Source: Enterobacteriaceae endosymbiont of Donacia clavipes
Lineage (GTDB): Bacteria > Pseudomonadota > Gammaproteobacteria > Enterobacterales > Enterobacteriaceae
Length of the DNA: 64,000 nucleotides
Assembly (NCBI RefSeq): GCF_012570365.1
Contig: NZ_CP046208.1
Location: 350,226-414,225, forward strand
Reading direction: 5' to 3'
In this document: positions 36,468 to 42,340 of the stretch, in pieces
Numbering within the stretch: position 1 is the stretch's first letter
Layout: every line of letters starts with the position of its first letter
Notes under the pieces: generated by a model
Told to the model about the DNA's origin: nothing
The model's database searches: none
Seen by the model: only the letters and a program-made list of their open reading frames with translations
Made by a program: the position numbers and the translations under genes

Positions 36468-36660
36468 ATTTTCTCCTAAAATTAATTTTTTATATAATTA
36501 ATTTTTAATTATAAATAAATTTTAAAATATTTTATTACAAAAATAAAAAAACCTTATTTATATATTTAATAAATTTTAATATGTGTTAAATAAGATTAAA
36601 CTTTATTAAATAAATATGTTATTTTTATGCAATAATATTTTTATTTATGGATATTTTATT

Positions 36661-37716
36661 ATGAAAAATAATAATTTTAATCATAATCAATGCTTAATAA
36701 CTCCAAAAGAATTAAAAAGTAAGTTACCAATATCTCAAAAAATAAAAGATCAAATTTTGATATCACGTAAAATTATATCAAATATAATTTCTGGAAAAAA
36801 TCATAGATTATTAATTGTTTGTGGACCTTGTTCAATACATAATATAAAAGAAGCAATAGAATATGGAAATTTTTTAAAAAAAATATCTTTAAAAATTAGT
36901 AATATATACATTGTTATGAGAGTGTATTTTGAAAAACCTAGAACTATTTTAGGATGGAAAGGATTAATTAACGATCCATATATGAATAATTCTTTTGATA
37001 TTAATAAAGGTTTATATTTAGCTCGTAAATTATTGATAAAATTATCTAATAATAATATTGCATTAGCAACTGAAATATTGGATCCTAATACATCAAAATA
37101 TTTAGAAGATCTTTTTAGTTGGATTGCTATTGGAGCACGTACTGTAGAATCACAAATACATAGAGAAATAGCTTCTTCATTAAAAATACCTGTTGGTTTT
37201 AAAAATAATACAGATGGTAATATATTTTCTGCTATAAATGCTATTCAATCTTCTTCTCAAGAACATCATTTTATTGGTTTAAATAATAATGGTAAAGTTT
37301 GCATAATAAATAGTATTGGTAATAAAAATTCTCATATTATTTTACGTGGAGGAAAAATTCCAAATTATCATAAAAATAATATAAAAAAATATGAAAAAAA
37401 TATTTTAAAATTAGGATTAAAATCAAAAATAATGATAGATTGTAGTCATGGTAATTCTAATAAAGATTTTAGAAAACAAATTTTAGTTATTAAATCAATA
37501 ATATCACAAATTAAAGAAGGAAATAATTCTATTATAGGAATAATGATAGAAAGTTATCTTAAAGAAGGAAATCAAATATTAGATATTAAAAATCCAGAAA
37601 AATTACAATATGGTATATCAATTACAGATGGATGTATAAATTTACAAACCACAGAAAATATTTTATTTTTTATAAATACTGAATTAAATTCAATACTTAA
37701 ATTTCGTTCTTTATAA
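36661..37716 (+). CDS. aroF: DAHP synthase, AroF type
   Basis: Condenses phosphoenolpyruvate and erythrose 4-phosphate, the first step of the shikimate pathway. 351 residues from the ATG I chose, because the N-terminus NQCLITPKELKSKLP then aligns with E. coli AroF; the in-frame ATG 45 bases upstream would add a non-homologous leader. Landmarks: VCGPCSIH (metal Cys), RVYFEKPRT, GARTVESQ, HIILRGGK, CSHGNSNKDF. The latter and VCGP mark AroF (Tyr-regulated) rather than AroG. At 140-148 LDPNTSKYL replaces LDPNSPQYL, a region linked to feedback control. It forms an operon with tyrA. Confidence 0.95.
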   Translation: MKNNNFNHNQCLITPKELKSKLPISQKIKDQILISRKIISNIISGKNHRLLIVCGPCSIHNIKEAIEYGNFLKKISLKISNIYIVMRVYFEKPRTILGWKGLINDPYMNNSFDINKGLYLARKLLIKLSNNNIALATEILDPNTSKYLEDLFSWIAIGARTVESQIHREIASSLKIPVGFKNNTDGNIFSAINAIQSSSQEHHFIGLNNNGKVCIINSIGNKNSHIILRGGKIPNYHKNNIKKYEKNILKLGLKSKIMIDCSHGNSNKDFRKQILVIKSIISQIKEGNNSIIGIMIESYLKEGNQILDIKNPEKLQYGISITDGCINLQTTENILFFINTELNSILKFRSL

Positions 37717-37745: not shown

Positions 37746-38801
37746 ATGTTAAAAAAACTAATTATATTACGTAATAAAATAGATATTTTAGATAAAAAAT
37801 TACTAGAAATTATAAATAAAAGATTAATTTTAGTAAAAAAAGTAGGAATAATAAAAAATAAGCATAAATTACCTATTTATGATCCAAAAAGAGAAAAATA
37901 TATAATTAAAAGAAAAAGAAAAGAAGCAAAAAAAAAAGGTATATCACCTAATCTTATTGAAAAAATATTATATTGTATAATAAACGAATCATATTTATAT
38001 GAACAAAAAAAAAATTTTAAAAAATTAAATTCTGATATTTTAACTATATTAATTATTACTAATAATAAAATGGGACATTTTTTTAAAAAAATGTTAATTA
38101 TGTCAAATTATAGTGTTATTATCATAGAATTAGAAAATTTTAAAGTGAATAATAATATAAATGATTTATTTTTAAATATAAGTATAGTTATTATTAGTAT
38201 AAATATATCAATACCATATTTTGATATATTAATTTATAAATTAAAAAAATTACCTAAAAATTGTACAATTATAATTATTTCTTCTATAGAAAATATATTA
38301 ATAAAAAAAATATCAAAAATACATAAAGGACCAATTCTTGGTTTATATCCTTTATTTAATTTAAAAAGTATTATTTTAATAAAAAAATCTATATTATGTT
38401 GTTTTATACATAAATCTAAGTCTTATATTTGGTTTTTAAAACAAATGGAAATTTGGGGATTAAAAATAAAAAATATTGATATAATTAAATATAATAAATT
38501 TCTTTTTTTAAAATCATTGCAATATTTTTCTACATTAATAATATATAATATTTTTTTATTAAAAAAAAATGAACCATTAGAAAAACAATTATCATTATTT
38601 TCAATACCTTTTTGTGATTTAAATTTATTTCCTTTAAAAAAAAAATTTTTAAAAGATTTAAAATTATACATAAATACAATTTTATTTTCTAATAGTAATG
38701 AAAAAAATATTAGAAAATATTTAATTCATATGAATAACATAATTAATTTAATTCAAAAAAAAAAAATTAAAGAAATAATTAATATTTTTAAATATAATTA
38801 A
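37746..38801 (+). CDS. tyrA: TyrA: chorismate mutase with a degenerate prephenate dehydrogenase domain
   Basis: 351 residues (E. coli 373), 29 bases after aroF as in the enterobacterial aroF-tyrA operon. Residues 1-95 align well with the TyrA mutase: LRNKIDILDKKLLEI, INKRLILVKKVG and KLPIYDPKRE keep the catalytic Arg, Lys and Glu positions. The dehydrogenase part is co-linear (GPILGLYPLF, QMEIWGLKI) but lacks essentials: the NAD loop GGGGQMG is TNNKMG (105-110), catalytic His197 is Tyr201, the EHD motif is gone, and the last 20-odd residues are missing. Probably a working mutase only; function of the second domain is doubtful. Confidence 0.9.
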   Translation: MLKKLIILRNKIDILDKKLLEIINKRLILVKKVGIIKNKHKLPIYDPKREKYIIKRKRKEAKKKGISPNLIEKILYCIINESYLYEQKKNFKKLNSDILTILIITNNKMGHFFKKMLIMSNYSVIIIELENFKVNNNINDLFLNISIVIISINISIPYFDILIYKLKKLPKNCTIIIISSIENILIKKISKIHKGPILGLYPLFNLKSIILIKKSILCCFIHKSKSYIWFLKQMEIWGLKIKNIDIIKYNKFLFLKSLQYFSTLIIYNIFLLKKNEPLEKQLSLFSIPFCDLNLFPLKKKFLKDLKLYINTILFSNSNEKNIRKYLIHMNNIINLIQKKKIKEIINIFKYN

Positions 38802-38813
38802 TAATAAATTTTT

Positions 38814-38852
38814 AAAAAAAAACTTAATATTGAATAGGATATTAAGTTTTTT
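38814..38852. terminator. Bidirectional terminator between tyrA and bamD
   Basis: CTTAATAT (38823-38830) pairs with ATATTAAG (38839-38846) around an 8-base loop. Nine A precede and six T follow, so the hairpin has a U-tract in either direction. It sits between the convergent tyrA and bamD and can serve both. Confidence 0.8.
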
Positions 38853-38867
38853 ATAAAAAAAGTTATT

Positions 38868-39569
38868 TTAAAATTTACTAAAAGATTCTTGTAATATTTT
38901 TTTCACTAATTTAGTTTCTTTATTGTTAGAAGAGTAAAATTTTAAAAATCTTATACATCTGTTAATTGTCGAAATATACATTTTTTTTTTAAACAAAAAT
39001 TTAATAATATTTAAATCAAATTTTCTTACACGATTTTTCATTTTAATTAAATGATATTTTAAATATTTTATATAAATACTATTTGGATAATTTTTAATAA
39101 GAATATTTGTATCATTAATTGCAAGATTAGTATAAAAAGGATTATAGTGTGATCTTTCTATATTAAATAAATTTTGTATTTCATTATTTTGATCTAAAGA
39201 TATTTCTGACATAATTCTAATATAGAGAATATAATCCAAAAAAGGAGATTTATTATATGAAATGATAAATTCTTCTGTAAAATCTAAAACATTTAAAAAA
39301 TTTTTATCAATATAATTTAAATAAATTAAATATACTAAAACTTTCTCGGTATATTTATTATATGGATATTTTATATAAAAATCTTGAAATTTAAATAAAG
39401 CTTTTTGATATTTATGATCATATAAAATTTTTATTGATTCTAAATATTTTTTTTTTAAACAAAAATTTGAATTTATTTTATTATCACAACTAGAATATTT
39501 ACAATTAATTGTTAATATTAATATTAACATATTAATAATAAAGAATTTTTTTTTTATAAAAATATTCAT
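38868..39569 (-). CDS. bamD: Outer-membrane assembly lipoprotein BamD
   Basis: TPR-like lipoprotein of the BAM complex that inserts beta-barrel proteins into the outer membrane. 233 residues (E. coli 245). A short basic start and hydrophobic stretch (9-22) are followed by two cysteines, LTINC and YSSC; neither is a canonical lipobox. Aligned blocks: ALFKFQDFYIKYPYNKYTEK, FLDYILYIR, DTNILIKNYPNSIY and LIKMKNRVRKFDLNI. It lies divergent to rluD exactly as in E. coli; raiA, pheL and pheA, which sit between bamD and tyrA in E. coli, are gone. Confidence 0.88.
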   Translation of the reverse strand: MNIFIKKKFFIINMLILILTINCKYSSCDNKINSNFCLKKKYLESIKILYDHKYQKALFKFQDFYIKYPYNKYTEKVLVYLIYLNYIDKNFLNVLDFTEEFIISYNKSPFLDYILYIRIMSEISLDQNNEIQNLFNIERSHYNPFYTNLAINDTNILIKNYPNSIYIKYLKYHLIKMKNRVRKFDLNIIKFLFKKKMYISTINRCIRFLKFYSSNNKETKLVKKILQESFSKF

Positions 39570-39655: not shown

Positions 39656-40611
39656 ATGAAAAATATTAAATTAATATTAAAAGTTTGTTCTATATATGAT
39701 AGAAAAAGATTAGATATATTTCTTACAAAAAAAATTATACAATTTTCAAGATCTAAAATAAAAAAATTAATAATAAATAATTGTGTTAAAATAAATAATA
39801 TTATTATAAATATACCTAAAAAAAAATATTTTTGGGTGATATAATTAAGATTAATGCAATAGTTTCTAGTAAAAAAATTAAATGGAAAGCACAAAAAATA
39901 CCATTAAACATAATTTATGATGATAATTATGTTTTAGTTATAAATAAACAATCTAATCTTATTGTACATCCTGCAAATCAAAATATGGAAAATACTTTAT
40001 TTAATTCTTTAATATATTATTATCCTTTTTTAAGAGATTTACCCAGAGCTGGTATTATACATAGATTAGATAAAGATACTACTGGTTTAATGATTATAGC
40101 AAAAAATATCAACTCTTATATTTTTTTAAGAAAAGAACTGAAAAAACATAATATTATTAGAGAGTATGAAACAATTGTAAACGGAATAATTAATAAAAAT
40201 GGAATAATTAATTATCCAATTAAACGTATATATAAAAAAAAAAATATTTTTATGAAAGTAAATTCTTTAGGAAAAAAATCAATAACAGAATATTTTATAA
40301 AAAATATTTTTAAAATTCATTCACATTTAAAAATTAGGTTAAAAACAGGAAGAACTCATCAAATTAGAGTTCATTTATCATATATAAATCATAGTATTAT
40401 AGGAGATCCTATTTATAAAAATAATAAAAATATTTTTTTGTGTAATGATTTTTATAAAAAAAATATTAATAAAATAATTAAAAGACAAGCTTTACATGCA
40501 TGTTATTTAAAATTTTTACATCCATTTTATAATATTTTTATAAAATTATATTCATCATTACCAAATGATATAAATCAATTAATTTATTTTTTAAAAAAAA
40601 ATATTTATTAA
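39656..40611 (+). CDS. rluD: 23S rRNA pseudouridine synthase RluD, frame broken in a poly(A) tract
   Basis: Makes pseudouridines 1911, 1915 and 1917 in helix 69 of 23S rRNA. The S4-like N-terminal part (RKRLDIFL, FSRSKIKKLIINNCVKIN) is read from the ATG but ends at 39844. The rest (GDIIKINA, PRAGIIHRLDKDTTGLMIIAKN with the catalytic Asp, TGRTHQIRVHLSYINH) is in the -1 frame. The break falls at nine A (39818-39826); ten would join both parts into 318 residues, against 326 in E. coli. A TTG at 39832 could start the catalytic part alone. Conservation after the break suggests slippage rescue or a sequencing error, not an old pseudogene. Confidence 0.85.
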
Positions 40612-41473: not shown

Positions 41474-42340
41474 ATGAAAAAAAAAATAATTTTAATAGAT
41501 GGATCATTTTATTTATATAGAGCTTATTATGCTTTACCTAATTTAATTAATAGTGAAGGATATCCTACGGGAGCAATATATGGTTTTATTAATATGTTTA
41601 ATAAAATTATAAAAATAAATCCAAATAGTTATTTTTTAATTATATTTGATAAAGGTGTTTCTTTTAGAAAAAAAATTTTTAATAAATACAAATCAACACG
41701 AAAAAATATGCCTAATAATTTAAATATACAAATTAATCCTTTGTTAAAAATTATAAAGGCTATGGGATATAGTGCTATTTCTATTAATAATATAGAAGCA
41801 GATGATATTATTGGTACTTTAGCATTACAAGCAGAAAAAAAAGATTATTTTGTTTATATTTTTAGTCTTGATAAAGATATAGCACAATTAGTAACTCAAA
41901 AAATTAAAATAGTAAATCCTATTAATTATTCTATTTCTGGACCAAAAGAAATATATTATAAATATAGAGTATTTCCTGAATTTATTAGTGATTTATTAGC
42001 ATTAACTGGAGATTCTATAGATAATATTCCTGGAGTTCCAGGAATAGGAAATATAATAGGTAAAAATTTAATAAATAAATTAGGAAATTTAAAATATATC
42101 TATAATAATTTAGATATTGTTAATAATATAAATTTTAGGGGGGGCAATAATATAAAAAAAAAACTTATAAAATATAAAAAATCAGTTTTTTTATATCATA
42201 AGTTAACAAAAATTAAAACTAATATTAATTTAAATTTAAATGATTTAAATTTAATAAATAAACCAAAAAAAAATTGTTTAAAATCTTTATTTAAAACTTA
42301 TAAACTTAATAAATGGTTAAAAAACATAAATAAGTCATAA
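41474..42340 (+). CDS. polA: PolA reduced to the 5' nuclease (flap endonuclease) domain
   Basis: 288 residues, matching only the first third of E. coli DNA polymerase I (928 aa). Metal-binding acidic motifs are present: LIDGSFYLYRAYYALP, IEADDIIGTLALQAE, SLDKDIAQLV and LTGDSIDNIPGVPGIG with its helix-hairpin-helix. The frame ends with a natural stop just after the domain (KTYKLNKWLKN); no remains of the 3' exonuclease or polymerase domains are visible in the 284 bases downstream. It probably removes Okazaki primers, with gap filling by another polymerase. The same reduction is known in Buchnera. Confidence 0.93.
   Translation: MKKKIILIDGSFYLYRAYYALPNLINSEGYPTGAIYGFINMFNKIIKINPNSYFLIIFDKGVSFRKKIFNKYKSTRKNMPNNLNIQINPLLKIIKAMGYSAISINNIEADDIIGTLALQAEKKDYFVYIFSLDKDIAQLVTQKIKIVNPINYSISGPKEIYYKYRVFPEFISDLLALTGDSIDNIPGVPGIGNIIGKNLINKLGNLKYIYNNLDIVNNINFRGGNNIKKKLIKYKKSVFLYHKLTKIKTNINLNLNDLNLINKPKKNCLKSLFKTYKLNKWLKNINKS

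Follow-up and report, generated by a model that had tools for sequence, protein, structure and literature searches.

Chorismate mutases of the AroQ type are intertwined dimers with shared active sites, and the endosymbiont Buchnera keeps a bifunctional PheA. In Escherichia coli, pheA, pheL, and raiA sit between tyrA and bamD. Buchnera has lost TyrA (PMC1173090), and splitting of the E. coli TyrA into its two domains was reported to give low activities of both (PMC1173090, citing Chen et al. 2003). The prephenate dehydrogenase (PDH) of Haemophilus influenzae dimerizes via its C-terminal helices (PMC2954222). For the symbionts of reed beetles, Reis et al. (2020; PMC7289800) described a dehydratase gene located on a plasmid, and named it a bifunctional chorismate mutase (CM)/prephenate dehydratase (PDT).

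Here, a stretch of 64,000 nucleotides (the window; positions 350226-414225 of the main contig) from the symbiont of Donacia clavipes, whose genome of 463,028 bp consists of a main contig of 457,274 bp and a plasmid of 5,754 bp, was analyzed together with the genomes of 23 congeners; the symbionts of D. versicolorea and D. semicuprea, two of the 26 hosts in PMC7289800, lie outside the 24 genomes compared. The explanation that we consider likely is that TyrA serves as the cell's sole mutase in a pathway divided between two broken fusion enzymes on separate replicons, which would end in phenylpyruvate and phenylalanine and leave tyrosine to the host. In the main texts of the literature searched, PMC7289800 and PMC12508126 included, we found no account of reed-beetle symbionts with a dead dehydrogenase, with a plasmid PheA lacking its mutase, or with TyrA as the one mutase left; the plasmid location of the dehydratase is known already.

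The tyrA locus and the domains of TyrA

The features of the locus are as follows.

36616..37716, plus strand: aroF-type DAHP synthase gene (PRK12755 and aroFGH models over cut-off)
37746..38801, plus strand: tyrA, with the mutase half intact and the dehydrogenase half apparently dead but open (Pfam, NCBIfam, and alignment)
37767..38006, plus strand: CM_2 (AroQ) domain, residues 8-87, with R9, R26, K37, R49, E50, S82, and E86 kept
38022..38798, plus strand: former prephenate dehydrogenase half, residues 93-351, without a Pfam PDH match and under relaxed purifying selection
38058..38075, plus strand: TNNKMG at residues 105-110, in place of the NAD-binding glycine loop (alignment)
38346..38348, plus strand: Tyr201 (TAT) replacing the catalytic His197 (alignment)
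38802..38867, no strand: 66-base gap between the convergent tyrA and bamD genes, the place of pheA/pheL/raiA in E. coli
38868..39569, minus strand: bamD, the neighbor marking the vacated pheA place (Pfam, NCBIfam)

The tyrA gene is an uninterrupted frame of 351 amino acids, and a sequencing frameshift was ruled out, the frame being open in all 24 genomes. The preliminary description had given the gene as 37746..38867; the start stands, and the end includes the intergenic gap, the gene stopping at 38801. The aroF-type gene lies 29 bases before tyrA, and the two probably form one transcript; the aroF–tyrA pair recurs in loci L088, L089, and L096. In published transcriptomes of four species (PMC12508126), aroF is reported to be raised in the larvae of each; the main text of that paper makes no mention of tyrA or pheA.

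The mutase half, described beforehand as well conserved, was indeed found to be so: CM_2 matches residues 8-87 (E 6e-21, 74.9 bits against a Pfam cut-off of 27), and the catalytic residues of an AroQ mutase are present. With E values of up to 1 allowed, Pfam yields no match of PDH_N or PDH_C to the window TyrA. Residues 2-349 align with the full-length NCBIfam CM/PDH model (NF008400) at 257.9 bits, under its cut-off of 273, and the dehydrogenase half is open and co-linear, as had been claimed. Alignment also bore out the replacement of the NAD loop by TNNKMG and that of His197 by Tyr201, which aligns with the catalytic His200 of H. influenzae PDH (2pv7). Furthermore, the substrate Arg294 position is Lys, the SVP motif is lost, and the C-terminal tail is gone (351 amino acids against 370-376 in six intact congeners), so that the NAD loop GGxGxMG, the catalytic His, and the substrate Arg looked for in a T-protein are all absent. 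The position of the EHD motif reads KYN; its loss holds for the window gene and fails as a general feature, EHD being intact in eight, and HD in 13, of 18 dead copies in the genus. These sequence features support the reading that the window TyrA is in effect a chorismate mutase, with the tyrosine route apparently lost. To that extent the preliminary description is upheld; that PheA had lost a CM of its own was not foreseen in it.

As described, tyrA (ending at 38801) adjoins bamD (ending at 38868 on the minus strand) with 66 bases between, and pheA is missing from this place. The gap holds a 10-bp perfect inverted repeat (38821-38830/38839-38848) with an 8-base loop, followed by T's, which is perhaps a shared terminator; a terminator scan found none. 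A promoter scan gave 53 sites versus 45.3 expected. Beyond bamD, rluD (named by eye) lies in two overlapping frames of 62 and 259 amino acids (window 39656-40611), split just after a nine-A run (39818-39826), consistent with either a frameshift or a gene relying on poly-A slippage. In polA (window 41474-42340, 288 amino acids), the 5′-3′ exonuclease domain alone appears, by eye, to be left.

Mutase and dehydratase on two replicons

In all 24 genomes, profile searches placed CM_2 in one gene per genome, and that gene is always tyrA; the G009 plasmid consists entirely of N, and in G003 the match comes as two pieces of a single tyrA around a run of N. Each of the 24 TyrA sequences keeps the active-site residues of CM, with R9 of G003 falling in the sequence gap. 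No second tyrA, intact or otherwise, and no second mutase were found by profile searches of the window genome, where an intact second tyrA had been named as what would speak against the mutase-only reading. A scan of the genome contigs with the lone protein as query gave no relative. With respect to chorismate users, chorismate synthase is present in the window genome, and Chorismate_bind (TrpE-type) enzymes are absent from the 15 dead-type Donacia genomes and present in the other nine. In the window genome, as far as chorismate users of this family are concerned, a single outlet of the shikimate pathway seems to be left.

That a dehydratase is missing from the genome was ruled out. PDT (PF00800) has one match in the window genome, on the 5,754-bp plasmid, and it lies on the second contig in 22 of the 23 congeners, the remaining one being G009, whose second contig is all N. 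The preliminary description had proposed that the dehydratase step is encoded elsewhere, done by a host or partner, or non-enzymatic, and had called for a search for pheA in the rest of the genome; the search located the gene, and the first of these options holds, the others being unneeded if the PDT-only plasmid enzyme works.

The plasmid PheA is 215-236 amino acids long in the 23 readable plasmids of the genus and ends just past the PDT domain. Its N-terminus is a short, poorly conserved leader where a mutase domain would be expected, and in the alignment both CM and ACT domains are gone; PDT is the sole Pfam domain over cut-off in the four copies scanned (160 bits against a cut-off of 25.2). 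None of the 23 readable copies has the N-terminal CM of a bifunctional CM/PDT, and TyrA is the only mutase found because the plasmid PheA has lost its own. Five of six PheA reference sequences were left out of this alignment, and L036, L038, L039, and the PheA of G058 were read separately. By eye, all readable copies keep the Thr of the dehydratase motif TRF; its Arg survives in the Neohaemonia copy alone, so that the dehydratase activity is putative. The gene is under purifying selection (omega 0.08-0.12). On domain content, the mutase part of the published name (PMC7289800) is unsupported. The plasmid also encodes a 961-amino-acid inverse autotransporter (L032:1-2886; IAT_beta, Ig-like, and adhesion domains), and of the other 22 readable plasmids, 21 carry a plus-strand ORF of 846-1001 amino acids at the corresponding position, and G013 one of 673 amino acids.

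The dehydrogenase half across the genus

The alignment of TyrA with related symbionts that had been suggested was carried out, with the free-living reference loci G027, G035, and G036 left out. By motif, PDH looks alive in six of the 24 genomes, namely those of five Plateumaris symbionts and the symbiont of D. tomentosa, and dead in 18. The six living copies keep GGxGxMG, SVP, Ser176, His197 (HPMF), and the tail (370-376 amino acids), whereas in all 18 dead copies the catalytic His has become Tyr, and the glycine loop, SVP, and Arg294 are replaced. The motif losses in the window are therefore not chance, since NAD loop, SVP, and His197 are all lacking in 18 genomes and all kept in six. PDH_N is over its cut-off in exactly the six living genomes. 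The full-length CM/PDH model scores 471-500 bits in the living copies and 242-334 in the dead ones, and its cut-off of 273 is passed by 20 of the 24 genomes; as these include 14 of the 18 dead copies, this cut-off is a weak test of bifunctionality. The TyrA of D. tomentosa, called intact here, has Lys at the substrate Arg294, and its PDH may be weakened. In addition, all 24 TyrA sequences, intact copies included, carry Tyr at the position of E. coli His257. The H. influenzae counterpart, His260, sits by the tyrosine inhibitor (PMC2954222), and the living TyrA copies may thus be insensitive to feedback, as may the ACT-less PheA.

The six PDH-intact genomes were also reported to have kept methionine synthesis, with two separate methionine losses proposed (PMC7289800). 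Our four-gene tree shows the two-loss topology with support of 74-76, and a single loss is not rejected by it (AU p=0.27). Four of the 25 BamD entries in the tree (G002, G017, G020, and G029) are short fragments of 58-63 amino acids, and BamD therefore says little on Haemoniini. In the Haemoniini loci L030, L086, and L087, minus-strand frames of 58-63 amino acids stand alone at the expected bamD place, and either the gene was missed by the script or the neighborhood is different. An aromatic aminotransferase specific to the six intact genomes was ruled out, the extra Aminotran_1_2 protein being nearest to PatB C-S lyases (over the family cut-off in G011; 308.9 versus 340 in G006), which suggests a role in methionine synthesis.

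Loss and retention were compared over columns invariant in 12 intact TyrA sequences (six of the genus, G029, and five larger-genome relatives). Retention in the dead copies is 97% for the 20 CM columns, 16% for the 11 active-site columns, and 65% for the 58 other PDH columns. The columns lost in at least half of these copies number 0 of 20, 10 of 11, and 19 of 58, respectively (active-site against other PDH columns, Fisher p=4.6e-4). The active-site list includes judgement calls (Ser149, Trp133), and the test was repeated with three stricter lists, of which 8/9, 6/6, and 4/4 columns were lost (p=0.003, 0.004, and 0.028). Active-site residues are lost preferentially, and eleven PDH columns outside the active site are unchanged in all 18 dead copies.

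Omega was estimated with our own codon model, the likelihoods of which fell within 0.5 of those of IQ-TREE for two Plateumaris sets. The PDH of intact genomes has an omega of 0.066, compared with 0.202 for the dead copies of Donacia (p=6e-9) and 0.143 for those of Haemoniini (p=0.013). When dead Donacia were set against the intact genomes, no difference was found for CM (p=0.22); AroF gave p=0.075 and PheA a slight rise (p=0.046), so that part of the PDH relaxation may be general. For the dead PDH, an omega of 1 is rejected in either dead clade (2dlnL 246.8 and 64.8) as well as in each of the six closely related dead pairs tested (2dlnL 8.1 to 36.5; PDH dS 0.26-0.84). Among these pairs, D. clavipes–D. 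dentata shows the largest omega, 0.39; of the two intact pairs, P. pusilla–P. sericea overlaps the dead ones at 0.154. In a neutral simulation on the dead Donacia tree (15 tips, last 20 codons ignored), no tip was open in 200 runs. Overall, the dead half is under relaxed but real purifying selection.

A dead half kept under selection probably serves the mutase as a scaffold, and its removal would have been prevented because, in the enteric TyrA, the mutase probably depends on the second half for folding or dimerization. Within the dead half, the helical C-terminal part has an omega of 0.286 versus 0.147 for the Rossmann part (p=0.001), and this weaker constraint argues against a pure dimerization role, which predicts the reverse. 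A stronger version, by which the dead half would have gained a new role as an obligate partner, keeping the mutase in its proper shape and providing a docking site for the plasmid dehydratase—one phenylpyruvate-making complex assembled in trans, with a convergent counterpart in a second symbiont family—seems to us improbable.

Slimmer still is the chance that the second half is a pseudogene portion in decay, untruncated so far, with no selection on it. The lost catalytic residues, the lost tail of the window gene, a PDH omega two to three times the intact value, and the 0.39 of the D. clavipes–D. dentata pair would all fit decay; however, each dead clade, like each of the six close dead pairs, has an omega well below 1, the unchanged non-active-site columns point to constraint, and all 18 dead copies are open when neutral simulation left none so.

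Purifying selection on the second domain had been named beforehand as evidence against a loss of the dehydrogenase. It was indeed found (omega 0.20 in dead Donacia), but is not read as PDH activity because the catalytic residues are preferentially lost. It is very unlikely that the dehydrogenase is active with unusual residues and that tyrosine is made in all four host genera. In favor of this are the statement by Reis et al. (2020; PMC7289800) that the tyrosine pathway persists in each of the four, the remaining purifying selection, and the dead copies that exceed the full-length cut-off (14 of 18) or keep EHD (eight). Against it, His197, the GGxGxMG loop, SVP, and Arg294 are replaced together in every dead copy, with losses concentrated on active-site columns, and the His197Ala change in E. 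coli significantly decreased dehydrogenase activity (PMC2954222). AT-rich drift alone is also insufficient, as the 0.40-Mb G029 and the five Plateumaris symbionts keep the loop, SVP, Ser, His, and Arg, and Pfam sees PDH_N in them. Least probable of all is that the mutase owes its retention not to phenylalanine but to a different use of prephenate, such as the carboxy-SAM made from it for tRNA modification (CmoA) in enteric bacteria, given that a dehydratase under purifying selection is kept in all 23 readable genomes.

The proposed pathway and its counterparts

In the preferred reading, with TyrA as sole mutase, the shikimate pathway would supply chorismate, the N-terminal half of TyrA would convert it into prephenate, and the stand-alone plasmid dehydratase would convert prephenate into phenylpyruvate, which either a host aminotransferase or the symbiont's HisD-HisC fusion would convert into phenylalanine. 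Tyrosine would not come from the symbiont by the TyrA route, and the beetle presumably uses its own phenylalanine hydroxylase on phenylalanine. As for the order of events, we infer that in the common ancestor PheA first moved to the plasmid, with its mutase and ACT domains lost; TyrA would have become indispensable as mutase because the plasmid PheA had lost that domain. The dehydrogenase would have died later, once or twice (in Haemoniini, and in Donacia after D. tomentosa).

The search for an aromatic transaminase proposed in the preliminary description yielded two PF00155 matches in the window genome, one being the HisC half of the fusion and the other a weak match of 26.8 bits in a 413-amino-acid frame. 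The fusion is 800 amino acids long and lies between hisG and hisB (L098:1201-3603; 114400-116802 of the main contig), and it also occurs in L099 and L100. Both halves pass curated NCBIfam cut-offs in the two copies scanned, and in all 24 genomes a PF00155 match falls within an open frame of 802-869 amino acids. The published reading is that the host performs the final phenylalanine step, and hisC is listed among the missing genes (PMC7289800). The fusion may explain that absence, and a HisC-like enzyme could make phenylalanine from phenylpyruvate.

The same outcome is repeated in other symbionts. G058 (348,580 bp) and G060 (334,746 bp), of one genus in a different family of the same order, have an aroF–tyrA pair in which the PDH motifs are lost and the CM residues kept (G060 by eye), together with a PheA without CM, and CM_2 matches once in each genome. 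Their TyrA sequences score 280 (over the cut-off) and 250 bits on the full-length model, and of the six genomes of that family that were searched, the remaining four gave no TyrA match. Since the TyrA of Plateumaris is intact, this arrangement appears to have arisen independently. Elsewhere, G029 has an intact TyrA and no PDT match, and G033 has a PheA with its mutase (by eye) and no TyrA match. In G030 (599,419 bp), a 99-amino-acid stand-alone CM, PheA-like by eye, lies after a bamD-like gene (L097:2909-3208); PDT and full TyrA have no match in this genome, which thus shows the opposite remnant.

If borne out by assay, the nutritional role of most reed-beetle symbionts would be phenylalanine, not tyrosine. 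The loss of redundant domains from two fusion enzymes could lock a genome into keeping a half-dead protein, and whether the TyrA mutase needs its PDH half is directly testable because the 24 genomes hold living and dead versions and a second family repeats the outcome. Furthermore, gene-name tables, and even curated full-length cut-offs, can misreport what a symbiont supplies.

Compared with known systems, the window TyrA resembles the enteric T-protein (AroQ-TyrAc-delta, NF008400) in its co-linearity over residues 2-349, its mutase active site, and the aroF–tyrA pair, and differs from it in lacking the NAD loop, the catalytic His, the substrate Arg, and the tail, with a score under the family cut-off. 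The plasmid gene corresponds to the dehydratase part of the enteric P-protein PheA; unlike that protein, it is without mutase and ACT domains, is plasmid-borne, and would be fed in trans by the TyrA mutase. The published account of the same genomes (Reis et al. 2020; PMC7289800) already reports the plasmid location of the dehydratase; however, in calling the gene bifunctional and the tyrosine pathway retained, it is contradicted by our reading of the domains and motifs. The solution would be like that of Buchnera in that the symbiont makes phenylpyruvate and tyrosine is left to the host, but here the mutase apparently survives on a dead TyrA, not on PheA.
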